From: Candidatus Hinthialibacteria bacterium OLB16
Lineage (GTDB): Bacteria; Hinthialibacterota; Hinthialibacteria; OLB16
Assembly: GCA_001567115.1 (NCBI GenBank)
Contig: LMZT01000133.1
Coordinates: 1 to 36,136 of the forward strand
DNA: 36,136 nucleotides
Direction of reading: 5' to 3'
Position numbers and translations under genes: made by a program. Each line of letters begins with the position of its first letter. Positions within the stretch are counted from its first letter, which is position 1. Shown piece after piece: positions 20,736-31,100 of the stretch. The notes below the pieces were generated by a model. That model did no database searches. It had not been told where the DNA came from and saw nothing but the letters and a program-made list of their open reading frames with translations.

Positions 20736-22372
20736 TCAGCCTTTCGGCACAACCAGGCGGAAATCGGCGGATTGGTTCTGGTTGTTGGCCAGGCGTGCAC
20801 CAGGAAGTTCGAATGCCACTGTTTTCCAGCCGACCCTCCCACTCAATGCAACCGATTCACTCGATTTGTACATTCCATGGTAACCGGCCGAAAGATCCCA
20901 GGAATCATACTCGACATGGACTGCATCGGTTCCACCAAAACGGTTCTGGCCGGGGCGGGTGGGCACCTCGAAAATTTCGACCTCGAGTTTGACACGGTCC
21001 CGTGTGGCAAAGGCGAATGAACCTCCACACGGAAATAGAGATAAGAATCGATTGTTTCTATCAGATTCCCCTCTCTGGTCTCGACTGTTCGGAAAGCCCC
21101 ATCCTCCGCCTGGACCGCTTCGATACCCTGGGGGCCATTCCGGGCTGTCCAGGAGGCCCGCTCAGCATTCCGCCAGGGGCCTGGCAGCGGCTCGGCGATC
21201 CCCTTTTTGAAGGCGCGGGCATAATCGGCGGTTATCCTGAGGTATTCATCCCCATATTCCACAGTCGGGCAGATCTCGGTTCCCTCGTGAAGCTCATTCC
21301 AGGTCTCCACCACAGTGATCGGCGCCGGGGACCTCAGGGCATGTTCCCAGGCTTCGCGATAAAACCGGCTGTCTTCCCGTTCCCGCAGAACCTTGCTCCC
21401 GCGCGGCAATCCATGCACCGCGGAGTTATCGAATCCCGGCCCAACCGAGTTGATCGACAGGCAGGTTGGCTTGATCGCTCCTCCCCACTGGTAAATCCAA
21501 TCCGCACCCGCCTCCTGAGACCAGTCGCTATGGGCGATGAAAAGCGGGACTGCACCGCCAAACTCCTGTGCGAAGTGTTCACGGGCATAACCAAGCACAT
21601 GGCTGTCATGCCCGCTCGCAAACTCGGATGCATACAGCCAGACCAGCGGCTTTTTCTCCCACAATGCCCAGAATCTGTGCGGCACCAGAGAGTAGAAGTC
21701 ACGGATGGTGGCATAAAAATGTTTCCATCCGGCTTCGGTTTTCAGATCGATCTTGCCACCCTGCTGATAGTTGAATGGCGACTCGAAGGTGAGGGTCGAT
21801 GTGTCATAAAACATCCCGATGCGCGGGTTCGGCTTTCCTTCCTTTTCCCGTTTGTCGAGTGCGGCGGCAAGAGCCTTCAAACCACGCTCAGACCAGGCGG
21901 CGACCACATGCCCATCTTTGCCATACCGGCCCGGAACTCCCCAGAACACCGGCAGGAGGATATCGATCCCGGCCGACAGCATCCGATCGATCTGGGTGGA
22001 ATGCCAGGCGGGATTGTCAAAATCCCACTCCTTCAAATCGACCGGGTGGTTGGTCAGGGCATCCAGTGGTTTCTTTGAATTGAGATATCCAGTGGCAAAC
22101 TCGATGTGGCTGCGATTATAGGCCGGATCGCATAATTCTCCCGCGCAGCCATCTTTCCACTTGTACCAGTAAAAATAATATGCTGCCACCAGGCGATCTC
22201 CTGTCGCCCAGGTGGGAATCGATGCAACCTCTGTGGCCGAGACTGGCATGAAAGACCCGGGGGGATCCGGCAGCGCCTGGCATTGGAGATCCTGAAGGTT
22301 CGCCATCTGGCACAGAAAGGCCGCCAGGACAAACCCCGCGGCCCGGATGCATGACCCTTTTCCGCTGTTCAT
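20736..22372 (-). CDS. Secreted glycosidase-like protein (GH71/GH99-like, DUF5010 type), frameshift near 20990
   Basis: The ATG at 22372 follows a strong ribosome-binding site (GAGGAGG) and starts one base after the topo VI B stop; a signal peptide follows (AAGFVLAAFLCQMANLQ). The sequence VAAYYFYWYKWKDG, MLSAGIDILLPVFWG, FYDTSTLTFESPF and ITVVETWNELHEGTE describes a TIM-barrel enzyme of the GH71/GH99/DUF5010 type; E in WNELHEG is a likely acidic catalytic residue. The tail is a beta domain: DSYLYFRVE, then after the shift EVEIFEVPTRPGQNRFGG and VHVEYDSWD. One missing base near 20988-20995 (GTGTCAAAC) reconnects the two frames, giving 545 residues ending at VVPKG. Its substrate is unknown, probably an extracellular polysaccharide. 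Placement right behind a topoisomerase subunit is odd. Confidence 0.75.
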
Positions 22373-22373
22373 A

Positions 22374-24126
22374 TCAGGCCTCCTCCTCATTTTCGACTGT
22401 TTCCTCAGAGGACTCTCCCCCTGTGATTTCCTCAATCTCTTCCTCTTCGCCAACCGCTGAAGCACCGCCACGGCTGGCTTCGAGAACTTCTGTCAGGTTG
22501 GAAACGACCCGTTCTTTATCGCTGTCTGAAATCGCCAGTATTTCCTGGAGCGCGATGCCGATGTGGGGAAGATATTTTTCGATGTACCCCCGTTTGCGCC
22601 GCTCATCCGCCTGGCGTTTGCGAAGCCGGATATGGCTGGCCAGCTTGCGCCCGCATTCCTGAAGCGCCAGCTTCACCTCCCGCGTGATCTCATCGTAATC
22701 AGCGATGGCCTCTTTGCTCTCCGAGGTAAAGGGCACCCACACCGAAGCGATATGGACAAAGATCACCGCCGGGCCGGCGGGAAGCGCGCCTCTCGACTGG
22801 GACAACCCATAATTCCTCCAATCGGTCGAAACCACCCCATCGGTAATCGCACAGCCGGACTGCTGGTACAGCAGCGGCACACGGTTCGCAAACCGGTACA
22901 GGGTCACCAGATCATCGCTGGGAAGATCTCCCCCCCAGGCGACCCCAGCCTCGACCAGAAACGGATTCCCGCGATACACCGAAGGCGGGCGTGTCACCGC
23001 AACCGTGAAATCCGCTTTGATGCGCCCTGTCAGGCTCTTGATGATCAGGTCTTCGCCGATGGGTGAGATGCAGTTGGTCGGCGGGGCCGATGATCTTTGT
23101 GGAGTTGATCGACTGAGTACAGTTTTTCAGCCCCATGGGCAGCCACCCGCGAGGTGTAGGTCTGAACAGTAAAACCCGCCCCCCGGCAGATATCCTCTGC
23201 GACTTTGGGTGTAATGCGTGAAAACTCATGCTGCAGAAAAGGTCCCAGGTTGGGCTCTTTGGTGTCCCTGAGCATCTTGATCAGCATCCCCAGTTCAACT
23301 CCATAGGGATGCGGCTTGATCTCGGTCGGCTGCCTGGGCAGTTCATCTGTTTCACGGGGGTAAAACACCTCCACCCCCTCCGGGTTGATATACCTCAGGC
23401 TGGTATGCGGATTGGCCAGAGCCGTCGCTTCAAGGTACTGATCCACCGAATGCCGCCCCTTCTGATAGCGGGCTTCCAGCTCGATGCTGACCTCGGTGCC
23501 TGTCCTGGCGTATTCCCACTCGACATCGGCCTCCCTCACAATCTCCGGATTGTTTCGCCGTGTATCGATATGAAGTTCGTAGTAGTGCGCCGGTTTGCGC
23601 GGAGAGGGGCGTGAAGTGATGATGATCGGCTTGCCGGTGGTCAGCTGGCCATACATCCCGGCGGCGCTGATTCCGATTCCCTGCTGCCCGCGGCTCTGCT
23701 TCAGGGAGTGAAACTTGGAGCCATACAGCAGCTTGGCGAAGATCTTGGGAATCTGATTCTTGACAATCCCCGGTCCATTATCCGCCACAGTCACCCGCAT
23801 CCGTGTTTCGGAAATCGGGTCGATTTTAACCTGAATATCCGCCAGGATGCCCGCCTCTTCACACGCATCCAGCGAATTGTCCACCGCTTCCTTGATGGTG
23901 GTTAACAGGGCTTTTCGGGGATTGTCGAATCCAAGCAGGTGGCGGTTTTTCGTGAAAAATTCCGAAACCGAAATCTCGCGCTGCTTGCCCGCCAGACGCT
24001 GTGCCTGGGATTCGGTCTCATGCGGCTTTGCGGAACCGTTTTTTTGGGTGCAACTTTTTCCAGCTGGGCCTCCCCCTCCAACTCAAACAGGCTCAGCTGC
24101 TCACCAGTTTCCTTGTTTTCAGACAT
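22374..24126 (-). CDS. top6B: DNA topoisomerase VI subunit B (three single-base frameshifts)
   Basis: The GHKL ATPase signatures are present: EAVDNSLDACEEAG (N-box), VADNGPGIV, and SRGQQGIGISAAGMYGQ. They are followed by an H2TH region and a transducer domain with GPPTNCISPIGEDLI and WVPFTSESKEAIA, which holds the switch lysine. This subunit binds ATP and closes the strand-passage gate for subunit A. Three shifts break it: one A lost from the A7/T7 run at 24039-24045, one A gained at 23123-23127, one C gained at 23083-23086. Repair yields 583 residues, with ISVSEFFTKNRHLLGFDNPRK preceding the N-box as expected. I start at 24126 behind GGGGAGAGAA. The N-terminus contains QLSLF (residues 10-14), a sliding-clamp-binding consensus. 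No A subunit is adjacent. A Glu-rich C-terminal tail follows the transducer. Confidence 0.85.
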
Positions 24127-24172
24127 TTCTCTCCCCCTGCCAGACCACTCCCGTCCATCCTGGCTCTCCATT

Positions 24173-24257: not shown

Positions 24258-27200
24258 TCAATCCACTGAGCCTGTTCTTACCGGATGGGATCTGAAATCC
24301 TGGTTGAGGAGTGATTCATCGTACTCCTCCCGCAGCAACCGCACCCCAGAGTACAACTTGATTTCATCCAGAAGGGACATCAGCACCGGGATCACCACCA
24401 GTGTGAGAATGGTTGAAAAAGTCAGGCCATACACGAGCGATATCGCCAGTGGCACAAGGAAACTGGATGTCCCGCTCAGGCCGAACAGCATCGGAAAAAG
24501 GCCGGCGACAGTGGTCGCGCTGGTCAGGATGATCGGGCGGACACGCGAGCGTGAGGCCCACAGGATGGAACGCCAGCGATTCATGCCACGCTTCCTGGCC
24601 CGGTTGGTGAAGTCAACCAGCAGGATCGAGTGGTTCACCACAATCCCAACCAGTGCGACCACCCCCAGCAGCCCCATGAACCCGAGCGGCTCATTGTGAA
24701 CCAGCAGACCGATCAGCACTCCGACCAATGAAAGCGGAATGACCGACATGACCACAAATGGCTGCATGACCGAGTTGAATATGGTGGCGATGATGCCATA
24801 ATTGATCAGCATCGCCAGGGCGAAGGCCCGGCCAAGAGCTGCCATCGATTCCTGTGAATCCTCTTCCTCTCCGCCATAGTCGAAGAGGACCCCGGCATGA
24901 TCCTTGGAAACATTCCCATACCGGTCCTGCATCATCTGGTTGATTTCCCGGGAGGTGATGTAGACCCCATCCACATCCGCCGTGACTGTCACTGTCCGCT
25001 TCTGGTTCCAGCGCTGGATCGAAGAGAAGCTGCGGCCATAATCAACCCTCGCGAAGCTATCGAAAGGGACCATTTCACCCTTATCATTGCGGAATTTCAT
25101 GATGCGGATATTTTCAGGAGAAGAACGGTACCCTTCGGTGAACTTGACATGGATTTCGACTTCTTCCTCACCCCGTGTAAATGTGGTGGCCAATCCTCCT
25201 GCGAAGGCATTGCGAACTTCACGGGCAACTTCAGCCACACTGATCCCGAGATCAGCCGCACGCCTTTCATCCACATCGATGCGGAACTCTTCTTTCCCCC
25301 ACTCGAAATCATCCTTGATGTCTTTCAGTCCAGGCACTGTACGCAGGTAAGATTGAACCTCTTCAGAAATTTTGAGGATTGTGGGGTAATCCTCGGCCAT
25401 GATCCGGAATGTCAAGGCCGAGCCGACCGGCGGTCCACCTCGATCCTCCTGGAACTCAATGCTCATCATGCCGGGAATCTCAGGGAAATTCTTTCTTGAC
25501 AGATCCATGATGTCCTTGCCGCTGATTCCCGGGCGGACAGCGGATTCGGTCAGGTCCACAACAATCTGAGCCTTCCCGGAGCCATATTTCATCTGTCCGG
25601 TCGAGGCATCCTCAATAAATCCGACACGTGTGACCACGGCCTCGATGTAATTCTTCGGCAATCCGAGCAGATGTTCCTCAACCAGCTCGATCGCTTTTTC
25701 GGTCTGTTCGAGACGGGTGCTTTCAGGCATCTCGAGGTTGATCATGAAAAACACAAAATCATCATTCTTAAATAATTCAAACTTCATGCGCATGGATGCA
25801 TACACTGAGAAGGACACCAGCAGGCTCAGTGAAACCACCATGAATGCCAGGCGATGCCGCAGGCACAAAACCAGGAAGGACACATACCGGCTCAGGAAGG
25901 ATGGGAACCACTGGTTCGGACTGATCCAGCACGCATCGAAGCGGTTCCCACACCACTGGGCAATCCGCATCACCCGGGTGAAAGCATGCATAACTGCATA
26001 CACCAGGCTCCAGATTCCGAACGCCAGCATCCTTCCCAGCAGAACCAGCGGCCGCACCACCACCGGATACCGTGCCATGGGAGATCGAATCCCTGAGTCG
26101 GCCACAGCTTTTCGGATCGGTGCGCCCCAATGGTCCACCTTGTCCCAGTTGACCGGGTCACCAAATACCGCAAGATGGGTGGGCAGGCAGATCATCGCCT
26201 CGATTACCGAGGCGACAAGCGCAAAGGTGACCACCAGCGGTATGGACTGGCAAAACTTCCCCATGATGCCGGTCATGAAAAAGATCGGCATGAACGAGGC
26301 GATCGTGGTTGTCACCGAGCCGATCACGGACCAGAACACTTCTCCGGTTCCTTTGATCGCAGCAGTGACCGGATCGAATCCCATGGAGCGGTAACGGTGG
26401 ACATTTTCCGCAACTACAATTCCATCATCGACCAGCATTCCAAGGACGATCATCAATCCAAACATCGATATCATGTTGAGCGAAAGGCCTGTGAAGTACA
26501 TCATCACAAACGCTCCCATCATGGCGAATGGGATTCCTGCTGCAGTAAACAGCGCCATCCTCCCATTCAAAAACAACCTCAACAGCAACAGGCAGAGAAA
26601 CAGTCCCTGAATGCCATTGGATGTCAGCAGATCCAGCCTCTCACGGACCATGAAAGAAAGATCCATGCTCTGCCTGGCCATCACCCCATACGGCAGATCT
26701 TTTTCAATCCTGGCGAGCGCCTCCCGCACTTCACGCACAATCTGGACAGAGTCCCCGCCGGGCCTCTGTTTCACCTCGAGGTTGATGCAGCGCTCCCCAT
26801 CCAGCCGGCCGATGTTACTCGCCTCTTCGAAGGTATCTCGAACATCGGCGATGTCCGCCACACAAACCCGTCCGCCCTTGTTTTCCGCCTTGAGGACAAC
26901 ACGCTTGATATCCTGTGGATTGCTGTAGAGCTCCTTGGTCCGGATGATGAACTCCTCACCGGCAGTGCGCGCCAGCCCGGCGGCCAGGTCGAGTCCTCCC
27001 ACCTGAACTGCCCGGCGGACCTCTTCCAGGGTCAGCCCGTATCCATACAGGCGCCGAGGATCGATTTCGACCCAGATTTCCTCGTCACGTTCCCCGCCGA
27101 TGGTGACATCGCTCACCCCACGGACCGCTTTCAACCGGTCTTTGACATTATCCGCCACACGCTTGAGCTCATGCTCATTCACCGCGCCGGAGAGGGAGAC

Positions 27201-27623
27201 TGTGATCACCGGGAAATCGAAAACAAATTCGGTAACCACCGGCTTTTCCGCCTCGATCGGCAGATCCGGTATCACCTTATCGACTTCATTTTCCGCATCG
27301 CGCTGGACCTTCAAGGTGCTGGAGACCTTGGTATCCACTTCGAGAAGAATGATCGAACGCCCCTCGACTGTGGTGCTGCGCATGGTTTTGACTCCACGCA
27401 CATCCGAGAGCTCCTCCTCGAGAAGAACCGTGATGGTTTTCTCCATTTCATCGGCGGAAGCACGAGGGTAAATGGTGGTCACGAAGACAAAATCGGTTGA
27501 CACCATCGGAAAAAGCTCCCGCGGCAGCAGGAACACAATCACCAGGCCGGTCACCAGAAGGATGACCGTTATCAGGTTCACCAGAACCGGGTTGGTAACA
27601 GAAAATCGAGGGATGGCGTACAT
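24258..27623 (-). CDS. RND-family efflux transporter (AcrB/MdtB-like inner-membrane pump)
   Basis: The 1121-residue pump starts MYAIPRFSVTNPVLVNLITV and has two copies of the RND fold with 12 expected membrane helices. The proton-relay aspartates are in GMLVDDGIVVAENVHR (D399, D400), and the second half contains GIVVNHSILLVDFTNRARKRG. It would use the proton gradient to drive export through the adaptor and TolC-like channel encoded upstream. It starts 8 bases after the adaptor stop. It is longer than a typical AcrB (about 1050): the link between helices 6 and 7 is about 108 residues (484-592) and includes a hydrophobic stretch (521-546), an unusual insertion. The substrate cannot be read from the sequence. 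Confidence 0.94.
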   Translation of the reverse strand: MYAIPRFSVTNPVLVNLITVILLVTGLVIVFLLPRELFPMVSTDFVFVTTIYPRASADEMEKTITVLLEEELSDVRGVKTMRSTTVEGRSIILLEVDTKVSSTLKVQRDAENEVDKVIPDLPIEAEKPVVTEFVFDFPVITVSLSGAVNEHELKRVADNVKDRLKAVRGVSDVTIGGERDEEIWVEIDPRRLYGYGLTLEEVRRAVQVGGLDLAAGLARTAGEEFIIRTKELYSNPQDIKRVVLKAENKGGRVCVADIADVRDTFEEASNIGRLDGERCINLEVKQRPGGDSVQIVREVREALARIEKDLPYGVMARQSMDLSFMVRERLDLLTSNGIQGLFLCLLLLRLFLNGRMALFTAAGIPFAMMGAFVMMYFTGLSLNMISMFGLMIVLGMLVDDGIVVAENVHRYRSMGFDPVTAAIKGTGEVFWSVIGSVTTTIASFMPIFFMTGIMGKFCQSIPLVVTFALVASVIEAMICLPTHLAVFGDPVNWDKVDHWGAPIRKAVADSGIRSPMARYPVVVRPLVLLGRMLAFGIWSLVYAVMHAFTRVMRIAQWCGNRFDACWISPNQWFPSFLSRYVSFLVLCLRHRLAFMVVSLSLLVSFSVYASMRMKFELFKNDDFVFFMINLEMPESTRLEQTEKAIELVEEHLLGLPKNYIEAVVTRVGFIEDASTGQMKYGSGKAQIVVDLTESAVRPGISGKDIMDLSRKNFPEIPGMMSIEFQEDRGGPPVGSALTFRIMAEDYPTILKISEEVQSYLRTVPGLKDIKDDFEWGKEEFRIDVDERRAADLGISVAEVAREVRNAFAGGLATTFTRGEEEVEIHVKFTEGYRSSPENIRIMKFRNDKGEMVPFDSFARVDYGRSFSSIQRWNQKRTVTVTADVDGVYITSREINQMMQDRYGNVSKDHAGVLFDYGGEEEDSQESMAALGRAFALAMLINYGIIATIFNSVMQPFVVMSVIPLSLVGVLIGLLVHNEPLGFMGLLGVVALVGIVVNHSILLVDFTNRARKRGMNRWRSILWASRSRVRPIILTSATTVAGLFPMLFGLSGTSSFLVPLAISLVYGLTFSTILTLVVIPVLMSLLDEIKLYSGVRLLREEYDESLLNQDFRSHPVRTGSVD

Positions 27624-27630
27624 GGAATGA

Positions 27631-28947
27631 TCAGTACGACTTCATGTCCGAGAGCGATAGCGAAGGCGCTGGGGATACTCCATCTGTTCCAATTGGCATA
27701 TAGGGCTGCACCTCAACCGCCATTCCGACCCGGAAATCACTCGGTGGAGACACCACCACCGGAGTGCCCGGCTCCAGGCCAACCCGGATCACCACTTCAT
27801 CCCCATGGTCTTCCGCAATGGCGACTTTCCTCTGGCTCAGCGTGCCATCCAGCACCACCCAGACGAAATGGTTTTCATCATTCAGATGCACCCACTGGCG
27901 CTGGAGGGTGTAAGACTCGGGCAGTGGATCGAGGTTGATGCGCGCATAGGCGAAGGAACCGATGGGAGGAAGGTCGATGGTTTCCTTCCATGCAATCCAC
28001 AAGGGAAGTGAGTGCGTGGAAAAATTCAGAGCCTTCCCCAGCCGTGCTACCCGGCCCGGCGCAAGCGACCCCGTTGCATCGGAGTGAATTTCTGCCGCCT
28101 GTCCGATATCGATCCGGGATGCATTCTTCTCTCCGATTTCGGCGAACAGCCAGACCAGGTCCGGATCCTGGATCTCGAATATATTATCCATGGAGGCAAC
28201 CTGCTGGCCTGTTTCGACAGCCCGGCGTGTCACCACGCCTTTTATTGGCGAACGGATATGGGTCTGTTCCAAATCCCGTTGTGCCAGCTTTTCGCGTGAT
28301 CTGGCCAGGCTCAGGGTGGCGCTGGCTTCCTGAATATCAAACGTCTCATAACCTGCCAGCATCTTGGCAAGTTCCGCTGAAGCACTGTTCACCAGGGCTT
28401 TGGCAGCATCCAGGCGTTTCTGGAAAACCACCCAATCCCGGTCTGTCATAACTCCCGAATCATGCAGTGTCCTGTTCCGGTCAAGATTGGTTTCTTCCAG
28501 CAGGTAAAGCGCGCGGGCATTCTCGAGGCGGGCACGAATCGTATCCACATCCTCTGGACGATACCCACGGCTTTTTCTCTCAAAATCCGCCTGAGCACGC
28601 TCTCGTTCAGCAGTCGCTATTGACAGGTTCAGCTGAAAATCAACCGGATCGAGCTCCGCCAGGACCTCCCCGGCCGAGACTGCATCCCCTTCTCGAACAA
28701 GAACCTTTTGCACCAGGCCGGTGACCTCGGAATGGATATGGGCAATCTCCTGGCTGACCACACTCCCGTTTATTTCCAGGTATGGCTGCGCTGAAGAAGG
28801 TTGAACCGCAAGGACTCGTACTTTTTTGGTTTCAGGGGGTGGCTCAGGTGGAATTTCCCGGGTGCAGCCGGAAAAAATCAGCAGGCTTGAACAGGTTACG
28901 AACAGGACGGCAAAACTCGATCTTTGATATTTCTGTATGATTGCCAC
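27631..28947 (-). CDS. RND periplasmic adaptor lipoprotein (membrane fusion protein)
   Basis: A GTG start gives a lipoprotein signal with lipobox LIFSGC (cysteine near residue 28). The biotinyl-lipoyl half-motifs (VTGLVQKVLVREGDAVSAGEVLAELD and IRSPIKGVVTRRAVETGQQV) flank a long alpha-helical hairpin (about residues 110-225), followed by the beta-barrel and membrane-proximal domains. It connects the RND pump to the TolC-like channel. The 438-residue length is normal. The gene follows the TolC-like gene after about 200 bases; within that gap I see no gene and no certain terminator or promoter, so co-transcription is possible. No strong ribosome-binding site precedes the GTG. Confidence 0.92.
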   Translation of the reverse strand: MAIIQKYQRSSFAVLFVTCSSLLIFSGCTREIPPEPPPETKKVRVLAVQPSSAQPYLEINGSVVSQEIAHIHSEVTGLVQKVLVREGDAVSAGEVLAELDPVDFQLNLSIATAERERAQADFERKSRGYRPEDVDTIRARLENARALYLLEETNLDRNRTLHDSGVMTDRDWVVFQKRLDAAKALVNSASAELAKMLAGYETFDIQEASATLSLARSREKLAQRDLEQTHIRSPIKGVVTRRAVETGQQVASMDNIFEIQDPDLVWLFAEIGEKNASRIDIGQAAEIHSDATGSLAPGRVARLGKALNFSTHSLPLWIAWKETIDLPPIGSFAYARINLDPLPESYTLQRQWVHLNDENHFVWVVLDGTLSQRKVAIAEDHGDEVVIRVGLEPGTPVVVSPPSDFRVGMAVEVQPYMPIGTDGVSPAPSLSLSDMKSY

Positions 28948-29146
28948 GTAAGTCTACCGACTCTTTCTCTCCATCCTCTGCCCAGGTTTTCCTCACTCCG
29001 GCACCTGTCAGGATACCAGATCCATCGGAGCACGGAAAAGGCGCAATATAAAATTCCCATCTGTGAAAGGAAGTGCTTTTTCAGAAGGAACCTGCATTGG
29101 CTGGATTCCAGGACTGCATCACAGCCACCATCATTCGAACAGGCTG

Positions 29147-30973
29147 TTATTTGGCTGCCGCCATGGGAACCAGCTCTAGCCCCAGAGTGTCGATCAGGGT
29201 GCCACGAATCCGCTCGAGATGAATCACAGCCAGGTAATAATCGACAATTGCGCGTATCTGGGTTGCCTGGGCGCGAGCGTATGAATCCTGCACTTCCAGG
29301 AGGTCATGAGAGGTGGTGATTCCCTGTTCATGGCCGATCTTCTGCTTTTCCAGGCGGTCTTTTTCGGCACGAACCGATGCCGCAGCGGCCTCGACCTGCC
29401 GCTGCAGGCTTTCGATGGTCCGGACTGCCTGGCGGTGGTCGTAGTGGATGCGCTGCTCGGTGTCCCGAAGGAAAAATTCAGCCTGCGCAATCTGATACTG
29501 GGAGGACAGAACATCCGCTTTTTCCTTGCGCCGATAGAGGGGCATCTGGTAATTGAGTGCCAGGTTTGCGGAGGGATACTCGCCGCTGAACAACTCGCTG
29601 TGGTTCTGGTTGATGTTCTCACCCAATCCAGACTCAATCAGGGTCACAGCCGCATCCAGGCGCGGCCGAAAACGATCCTCAGCCAGAATCAACCCCTCGC
29701 GGGCATTCTGAACCGACACGCGTGCCATCTGAATCTCGGGATTCGTTTTCAGTGTCACATCCAATGAAACTGCTTCATCGACGGTAATCGGAGTAAATAC
29801 AGGAGGATCCAGGGGAATCAACGGGTTTTGCCAACCCTCACGATTCCGATCGATGGCGATCAGCTCCCGGATCCGGTCACGAGAGTTTTCAAAGGTATTC
29901 TGGGCTTCGATGACATCCCGCTCCCTTTGTTTCACTCCGGCTTCCGCCTCGAGAACATCGACCGCTATCAAGTCGCCATACTTGTAACGAATACGGTTTT
30001 CACGCAGCAGGTCGGCTGCCAGCCCAAGTGATTGGATGTTGATCGCCAGATCGATTCGTGCAAACACCATCTCCCAGTAAGCGGTGTGAGCGGCGAGAAG
30101 AGTATCCAGGGTCACCTGGCGCAGATCGAGTTCGGAGATGCGTGTGTTGTTATAGGCAATTCGAACAGTCGCCAGATTGACATTCGTTCCGGAGCCTTGC
30201 ATGAGGGGATGGACCAGACTGAAGGTCCCTGAGGTTCGATACTCCTGATCGAGTGGCTGCAAAAACCCGACACTGGTGTCGCTGCGGTTCATGTTCACCG
30301 CCAGCCCAACCTCGGTTCCAGTCACCAGCTTGCGCGTGACACCCAGCCCCGGATCATCCGAAGCATTTCCCAGCCCGAAATAATTCCTCTTCACCTTGTT
30401 GATCTGAGTGGCCCCAGCACCTCCTCCACCCGGGCCGCTGCCGCTCAAGAAACCGGCGCTTGGGGTATTGGTACGGCGGTATGTTATCACCGCAAAGCCG
30501 ACCGGATCGAAAACCGACCAGGCGCTATCGACTGAAAGCCCGGTAATCCTTGGATTCTGACGGGCCGCCAGGAGCGACAGGTTCCGCTGCAGAGTCTCCT
30601 TGACCACTTCAACCAGGTGAATCCCGCGCGAGCCGGGGGGCAGCTCGACCTGGGTGGCATTGATGATCGACTGAGTCTGGGCCACCAGGCTGGATGTGCT
30701 GGTGGCATCATTGATCTGAATCGGCAGATTGACATAGGAATTCACCAGGGGTGAATCGAGATCAATTTCCGAACCAACCGGTCCCTGGGTGGAGGAAATC
30801 GAACGGGCTGCGGTTGCCTGAGCCACCAACTGGGCCGAATCGACCTCAATCGGCTCATCCCCCGGCCACTGCGCCTGCGCTGATGTCCAGGTAATCAGAA
30901 CAATAAATCCAATAAATACACTGACCACCTGGCACCTGATAGCAGGATGGGGTGACCGACAGAGTTTCTCCAT
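29147..30973 (-). CDS. TolC-like outer-membrane efflux channel
   Basis: From the ATG at 30973 (GGAG ten bases before) the protein has 608 residues and a signal peptide (VVSVFIGFIVLITWTSAQAQ). An in-frame ATG at 30991 is possible but has a poorer ribosome-binding site. Two outer-membrane-efflux repeats are visible, each with the coiled helices of the tunnel (LAAHTAYWEMVFARIDLAIN; YSRAQATQIRAIVDYYLAVI-type end region) and SGTFSLVHPLMQGSG and LALNYQMPLYRR strands. The roughly 90 residues after the signal peptide (EVDSAQLVAQATAAR...) are extra relative to TolC. It would be the outer-membrane exit of the exporter with the adaptor and pump downstream. Confidence 0.88.
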   Translation of the reverse strand: MEKLCRSPHPAIRCQVVSVFIGFIVLITWTSAQAQWPGDEPIEVDSAQLVAQATAARSISSTQGPVGSEIDLDSPLVNSYVNLPIQINDATSTSSLVAQTQSIINATQVELPPGSRGIHLVEVVKETLQRNLSLLAARQNPRITGLSVDSAWSVFDPVGFAVITYRRTNTPSAGFLSGSGPGGGGAGATQINKVKRNYFGLGNASDDPGLGVTRKLVTGTEVGLAVNMNRSDTSVGFLQPLDQEYRTSGTFSLVHPLMQGSGTNVNLATVRIAYNNTRISELDLRQVTLDTLLAAHTAYWEMVFARIDLAINIQSLGLAADLLRENRIRYKYGDLIAVDVLEAEAGVKQRERDVIEAQNTFENSRDRIRELIAIDRNREGWQNPLIPLDPPVFTPITVDEAVSLDVTLKTNPEIQMARVSVQNAREGLILAEDRFRPRLDAAVTLIESGLGENINQNHSELFSGEYPSANLALNYQMPLYRRKEKADVLSSQYQIAQAEFFLRDTEQRIHYDHRQAVRTIESLQRQVEAAAASVRAEKDRLEKQKIGHEQGITTSHDLLEVQDSYARAQATQIRAIVDYYLAVIHLERIRGTLIDTLGLELVPMAAAK

Positions 30974-31100
30974 GGGCTTGATGCTCCACATACAGATTTT
31001 GATGCCCTCATCAACCCGGATTCAGTAGAAAAATCTACAAGGATCCCCAAAAAATCCCCGGGGTGAATCAGTTCTCCCCATCCCATGGCCCGGTACCAAT

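Follow-up and report, generated by a model that had tools for sequence, protein, structure and literature searches.

Two groups of described proteins are closest to the system analysed here, the archaeal topoisomerase VI (topo VI) enzymes and the bacterial proteins that bind the β sliding clamp, DnaN. Topo VI relaxes positive supercoils and decatenates DNA (PMC2643942; PMC11302465, available part). According to the same part of PMC11302465, the enzyme is of archaeal origin, topo IV is missing from the bacteria that have topo VI, those of Pseudomonadota and Terrabacteria excepted, and what topo VI does in bacteria is an open question; clamp binding is not discussed in that part. The clients of the bacterial clamp include PolC (C-terminal QLSLF), DnaE (internal QxxLF), Hda (QLSLPL), MutS, MutL and transposases, which share a short consensus given as QL[S/D]LF or, more generally, QxxLF (PMC12309361). 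In that study, the QLSLF motif of Bacillus subtilis PolC bound its own DnaN with a KD of 3.8 μM and the Escherichia coli clamp with submicromolar affinity, QLSLPL was a tight-binding peptide for the E. coli clamp, and glycine at motif position 3 weakened binding to the E. coli clamp. Topo II alpha and topo I are listed among the eukaryotic interactors of PCNA (PMC9690074), while no topoisomerase is among the bacterial clamp clients named in the reviews consulted. A search of the open-access literature (subscription literature and preprints were outside its scope) returned no earlier report of a link between bacterial topo VI and the clamp.

The window analysed here, a 36,136-nucleotide stretch of contig LMZT01000133.1 from Candidatus Hinthialibacteria bacterium OLB16, encodes a topo VI B subunit on its minus strand. 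Read from the ATG at 24126 the product is MSENKETGEQLSLFELEG, and its N-terminus from the same ATG is, in fuller form, MSENKETGEQLSLFELEGEAQLEKVAPKK. Both a GHKL domain (Bergerat fold, topo VI type) and a transducer domain were found, placing the product in DNA topoisomerase VI subunit B. The first open reading frame by itself scored 408 bits against NF003218 (cut-off 274), and the PF09239 transducer match scored 209 bits (cut-off 24). The closest solved protein is topo VI B of Methanosarcina mazei (2q2e). Like the archaeal proteins (NF003218 / TIGR01052), the window's subunit has GHKL, H2TH and transducer parts over its full length, and a Top6A partner is encoded in the same genome (contig C24, PF21180, E = 5.1e-60). 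Unlike archaeal topo VI B, in which about 13 residues precede the GHKL anchor, it has an added tail of about 45 residues, predicted to be disordered, that carries the putative clamp motif. The features are collected in Table 1.

Table 1. Features of the topo VI B gene in the window, and related loci with a motif at the other end of the protein
Feature	Position	Strand	Remarks
Putative β-clamp-binding motif QLSLF	24085..24099	-	topo VI B residues 10–14; QINLF/QESLF in family relatives
Topo VI B start codon ATG	24124..24126	-	same start position and Shine-Dalgarno in relatives
Shine-Dalgarno GGGGGAG	24131..24137	-	also found before the corresponding starts of G001 and G002
N-terminal extension, ending at the conserved GKQREISVSEFF segment	23990..24126	-	homologous extension of G002 predicted disordered
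A7 run, frame slip from extension frame to GHKL frame	24039..24045	-	no slip in relatives
Topo VI B GHKL ATPase and H2TH part	23045..24041 (ORF 23045–24082)	-	PF02518/PF13589; PDB 2q2e, E = 4e-95; NF003218
Topo VI B transducer part and C-terminal tail, different frame	22374..23126	-	PF09239, E = 3.5e-62
Nitrospira-lineage loci with C-terminal Qxx[LM]F			L047, L049, L069, L072, L073, L077, L078, L079

The ATG at 24126 is supported as the start because GGGGGAG also stands just 5′ of the homologous starts in both close relatives, G001 and G002. The window copy contains two frame slips, the second visible as an overlap of the GHKL open reading frame (to 23045) with the transducer open reading frame (from 23126), and the orthologues in G001 and G002 are intact. 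A GyrA-type gene of the same assembly is also split, into two pieces (contig C125:18302–19620), and is likewise intact in the relatives. Since this second gene is broken too, the breaks in both are probably base-calling or assembly errors rather than gene decay. A full-length topo VI B from the window's gene would depend on both slips being sequencing errors; the case for the motif is built on the intact relatives.

The sequence-only reading had placed a clamp-binding consensus, QLSLF, at residues 10–14 of this protein, 5′ of the first frameshift and in a probably unstructured extension before the GHKL domain. The pentapeptide was found there, encoded by CAG CTG AGC CTG TTT (24099 to 24085), and it conforms to the published consensus. 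Because it precedes both slips, the first of them near the A7 run, its reading is independent of any repair. The core of the G002 protein is 81% identical to that of the window's, with the N-terminus MPRTTAPDRQINLFEIR and the motif QINLF; the G001 core is 77% identical, with the N-terminus (V)SEAVIEKQESLFDVSQ and the motif QESLF. All three family members share Q1, L4 and F5, with an acidic residue following the phenylalanine, and the motif begins at residues 9–10 in each, its spacing from the start being equal within one residue. The flanks differ, as do 5–7 of the 15 bases inside the motif. The expectation that an alignment would show QLxLF kept while its flanks drift was thus borne out for Q1, L4 and F5. 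The possibility that close homologues lack the pentapeptide, which the same reading took as a refutation, was not realised: the consensus form is kept in G001 and G002. Exact QLSLF is rare, and no motif was found in the closest homologues from other phyla, G037 and G081. On these sequences the interpretation of QLSLF as a clamp motif is supported.

The AlphaFold2 model of the intact G002 protein had a mean pLDDT of 84.5 over the core, while residues 1–52, which include the motif, were below 50. The alignment is thin there, with few rows, so the model lends support, short of proof, to placing the motif in a disordered, accessible segment.

To see how widely such motifs occur, topo VI B sequences were collected by taking a named GTDB set, searching one order and four phyla, and adding further loci. 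In each, the open frame 5′ of the anchor ..ISVSEFF, which is invariant, was taken as the extension, to a maximum of 110 residues, giving 282 distinct sequences. A motif of the form QxxL[FL] or Qx[SDNT][LF]x[FL] was present in 78 of these, against 2.7 expected from composition-preserving shuffles (maximum 9 in 1000), a count to which a few matches 5′ of the true start may contribute, the extensions being taken from open frames and not from verified starts. The reversed patterns, used as a control, matched 2/282. Removal of similar extensions left 72 of 237 with a motif (2.4 expected). The stricter QL[SD]LF was found in 4/282 against 0.01 expected, leaving out the window copy, in which the frame of the motif differs from that of the anchor. 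Since these patterns had been picked after some data had been seen, an unbiased enumeration was added, in which all three-residue patterns within six positions (n = 35,542) were scored after removal of the 22 conserved residues next to the anchor. Q..LF ranked first (40 sequences, 0.48 expected), QL.L second and Q..F.F third. At the non-fixed positions L was favoured at position 2 and G, S or D at position 3, near the published consensus (PMC12309361). The median distance from the motif to an in-frame upstream ATG was 7 residues.

Motif-bearing members mostly have QxxLF, QxxLL or Qx[S/T][L/F]xF. With group names inferred from the named locus used as the centre of each search, the motif was present in 31/82 sequences of the Planctomycetota-type phylum of G105 (for example QLDLF, QLSLF, QRSLF and QADLF), in 15/48 from the phylum of G098, mostly as QLGLF, and in 16/58 from the phylum of G103, mostly as QGSFAF or QESFAF with one QRSLPL (L187). 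Many topo VI B proteins of the last phylum (loci L138–L196) carry, at the very N-terminus, a hexapeptide form M[ST][KE]Q[GE]S[FL]xF, which is likely a lineage-specific variant of the clamp motif. In the named GTDB set the motif was found in 13 of 80. It is therefore common in bacterial topo VI B and not universal. Because about two-thirds of the surveyed proteins, including those of G037 and G081, have no N-terminal motif recognisable by these patterns, clamp binding is not needed for bacterial topo VI in general.

In the folded core the motif pattern was depleted (15 matches, 43 expected), and C-terminal tails overall gave a weak excess (13 against 6.8). A general C-terminal tail motif across topo VI B was rejected, the overall signal being weak, although the signal is clear in Nitrospira: 8 of the 11 inspected Nitrospira-lineage proteins are without an N-terminal motif and have Qxx[LM]F in the C-terminal tail instead, about 30 residues before its end (QQELF, QQDLF, QLALF, QQALF, QIALF or QQEMF; loci in Table 1). 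Relocation to the other end of the protein would be hard to explain unless the motif itself were selected, an argument that has been made likewise for transposases (PMC4549789), whose clamp motifs also appeared independently and changed place. The A subunits inspected had no terminal motif, and carriage of the motif by Top6A instead of the B subunit was rejected. In a FastTree phylogeny of the cores, the motif is clustered, yet labile: its state must have changed at least 16 times to fit the well-supported branches. It has therefore been recurrently gained and lost rather than inherited as one stretch, and we accept from the sequences that bacterial topo VI appears to have acquired or relocated it repeatedly.

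The presumed partners are encoded in the same genome. DnaN was found on contig C48 (TIGR00663, 206 bits), and alignment to solved clamps showed that the T-D-G, P and M-P-M segments are retained; from the E. coli clamp, we take these to line the peptide pocket of DnaN. The internal clamp site of DnaE is QASFF in the window's genome and QVSLF or QANLF in the two relatives. Because the DnaE motifs have this form, QxxLF-type peptides are the most likely ligands of DnaN here. One GyrA/ParC-type A subunit was found per genome in the three family genomes, the window's own being the one in two pieces, and a simple pattern search did not find a GyrA box in this split gene. Among four loose control genomes without a listed topo VI B match (G143, G149, G292 and G235), three had two GyrA/ParC genes and one had a single gene. 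The single subunit in the family is consistent with the absence of topo IV reported in the available part of PMC11302465, and since it is the only one found, topo VI is probably the main decatenase.

The topo VI B motif is thus very probably a genuine β-clamp-binding motif on an N-terminal tail predicted to be disordered, through which topo VI would be recruited to clamps at the replication fork or in its wake. Position 3 of the motif is often G, which counts against clamp binding, given its effect on the E. coli clamp. A chance five-residue match in a low-complexity tail is scarcely credible: any single pentapeptide match could be random, and exact QLSLF is absent from most topo VI B, but the motif is conserved in the family with different codons, and 78 matches were seen where 2.7 were expected while the reversed motif stayed at chance level. 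We rejected chance on the shuffle, reversed-motif and unbiased-pattern controls together. That the motif survives from an archaeal PCNA-interacting (PIP) box, brought along when topo VI was transferred to bacteria, was also rejected and is very improbable. Topo VI is of archaeal origin (PMC11302465, available part), PIP boxes too begin with Q and a hydrophobic residue, and in Pyrococcus abyssi extracts the topo VI subunits were recovered together with NucS and PCNA (PMC4929162). Against this, the solved archaeal proteins (2q2e and 2zbk) align from residues 6–8 and so have no extension, five loci from archaeon-labelled genome bins are without the motif in their N-termini, where readable, QLSLFELE has no aromatic pair at positions 7–8 (the PIP box being Qxx[I/L/M]xxFF), and the motif state changes many times within bacteria. 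The rejection was made on the missing extension and the missing aromatic pair.

It is more conceivable, though still quite improbable, that the tail carries a short linear motif which merely resembles QxxLF and serves some other partner, for instance a clamp loader, an SMC protein or an adaptor not yet known. The predominance of Qx[S/T]FxF over QxxLF among the motif-bearing members in the phylum of G103 would fit such a partner. However, the unbiased consensus (Q1, L2, S/D/G3, L4, F5 and the hexapeptide form) matches the clamp consensus at every position, the DnaE clamp sites of the family genomes are of this form too, and QRSLPL of L187 is very like the E. coli peptide QLSLPL. A different question is what clamp binding would be for. 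That it serves repair or recombination, through break-making or the remodelling of stalled forks, and not replication-coupled decatenation, we consider unlikely. Many clamp clients are repair proteins (PMC9690074), and Spo11 evolved from the topo VI A subunit (PMC12203943, available part). On the other side, the single GyrA/ParC-type subunit of the family members implies that a decatenase is needed, and topo VI bacteria outside Pseudomonadota and Terrabacteria are without topo IV (PMC11302465, available part).

On the preferred reading, recruitment by the clamp, the topo VI B tail would occupy the pocket in which DnaN takes up hydrophobic peptides, in the manner of the tails of Pol III, MutS, Hda and other clients; with known clamp-binding proteins it shares the placement in a disordered terminal segment and the conservation of positions 1, 4 and 5. 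Clamps accumulate behind the fork on lagging-strand DNA, where precatenanes form. Docking would concentrate a type IIB topoisomerase on clamps at the fork or left behind it, and the tethered enzyme could remove positive supercoils as well as the precatenanes and catenanes of sister chromosomes; the clamp tether would thereby give topo VI a replication-coupled targeting. We infer from the motif physical binding, recruitment and a role in decatenation, and in bacteria apparently without topo IV the enzyme is probably brought to DNA that is being, or has just been, replicated. Because related motifs recur in many bacteria far above chance, the archaeal-type enzyme has probably been wired into the bacterial replication machinery. 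The fuller proposal, of a replisome-coupled decatenase whose clamp tether was repeatedly acquired, lost and relocated after transfer from archaea, is held with moderate confidence. As far as we found, direct recruitment by the bacterial β clamp is not known for any other type II topoisomerase, so that topo VI would be the first. It would differ from the bacterial clients named in reviews in being an archaeal-origin type II topoisomerase with an N-terminal motif, and would resemble eukaryotic topo II alpha and topo I in being a topoisomerase tied to a sliding clamp, although those are unrelated topoisomerases with another clamp and another type of motif. If so, the function of topo VI in many bacteria would be explained by its delivery through DnaN to newly replicated DNA, and the predicted clamp-binding tail, found across several phyla, makes that answer specific and cheaply testable. 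A transferred archaeal enzyme could then have joined an unrelated bacterial replisome on several occasions, by means of a tether five residues long that evolved at the N-terminus or at the C-terminus.

The two topo VI subunit genes are on separate contigs in the window's genome (C133 and C24) and in G002 (C7 and C11), and close together in G001 (C269), G037 (C128) and G081 (C25). One topo VI B gene (L099) is on a 34.7 kb IMG/VR contig catalogued as viral; with one relative among viral contigs, viral carriage was set aside as uninformative. In the window, an RND-type efflux set (AcrB-family pump, HlyD-type adaptor and outer-membrane efflux protein; 24258–30991, minus strand) lies directly 5′ of topo VI B on the same strand, and the downstream open reading frame (20843–22471, minus strand) has a weak DUF5010 / glycosyl hydrolase family 99 match.
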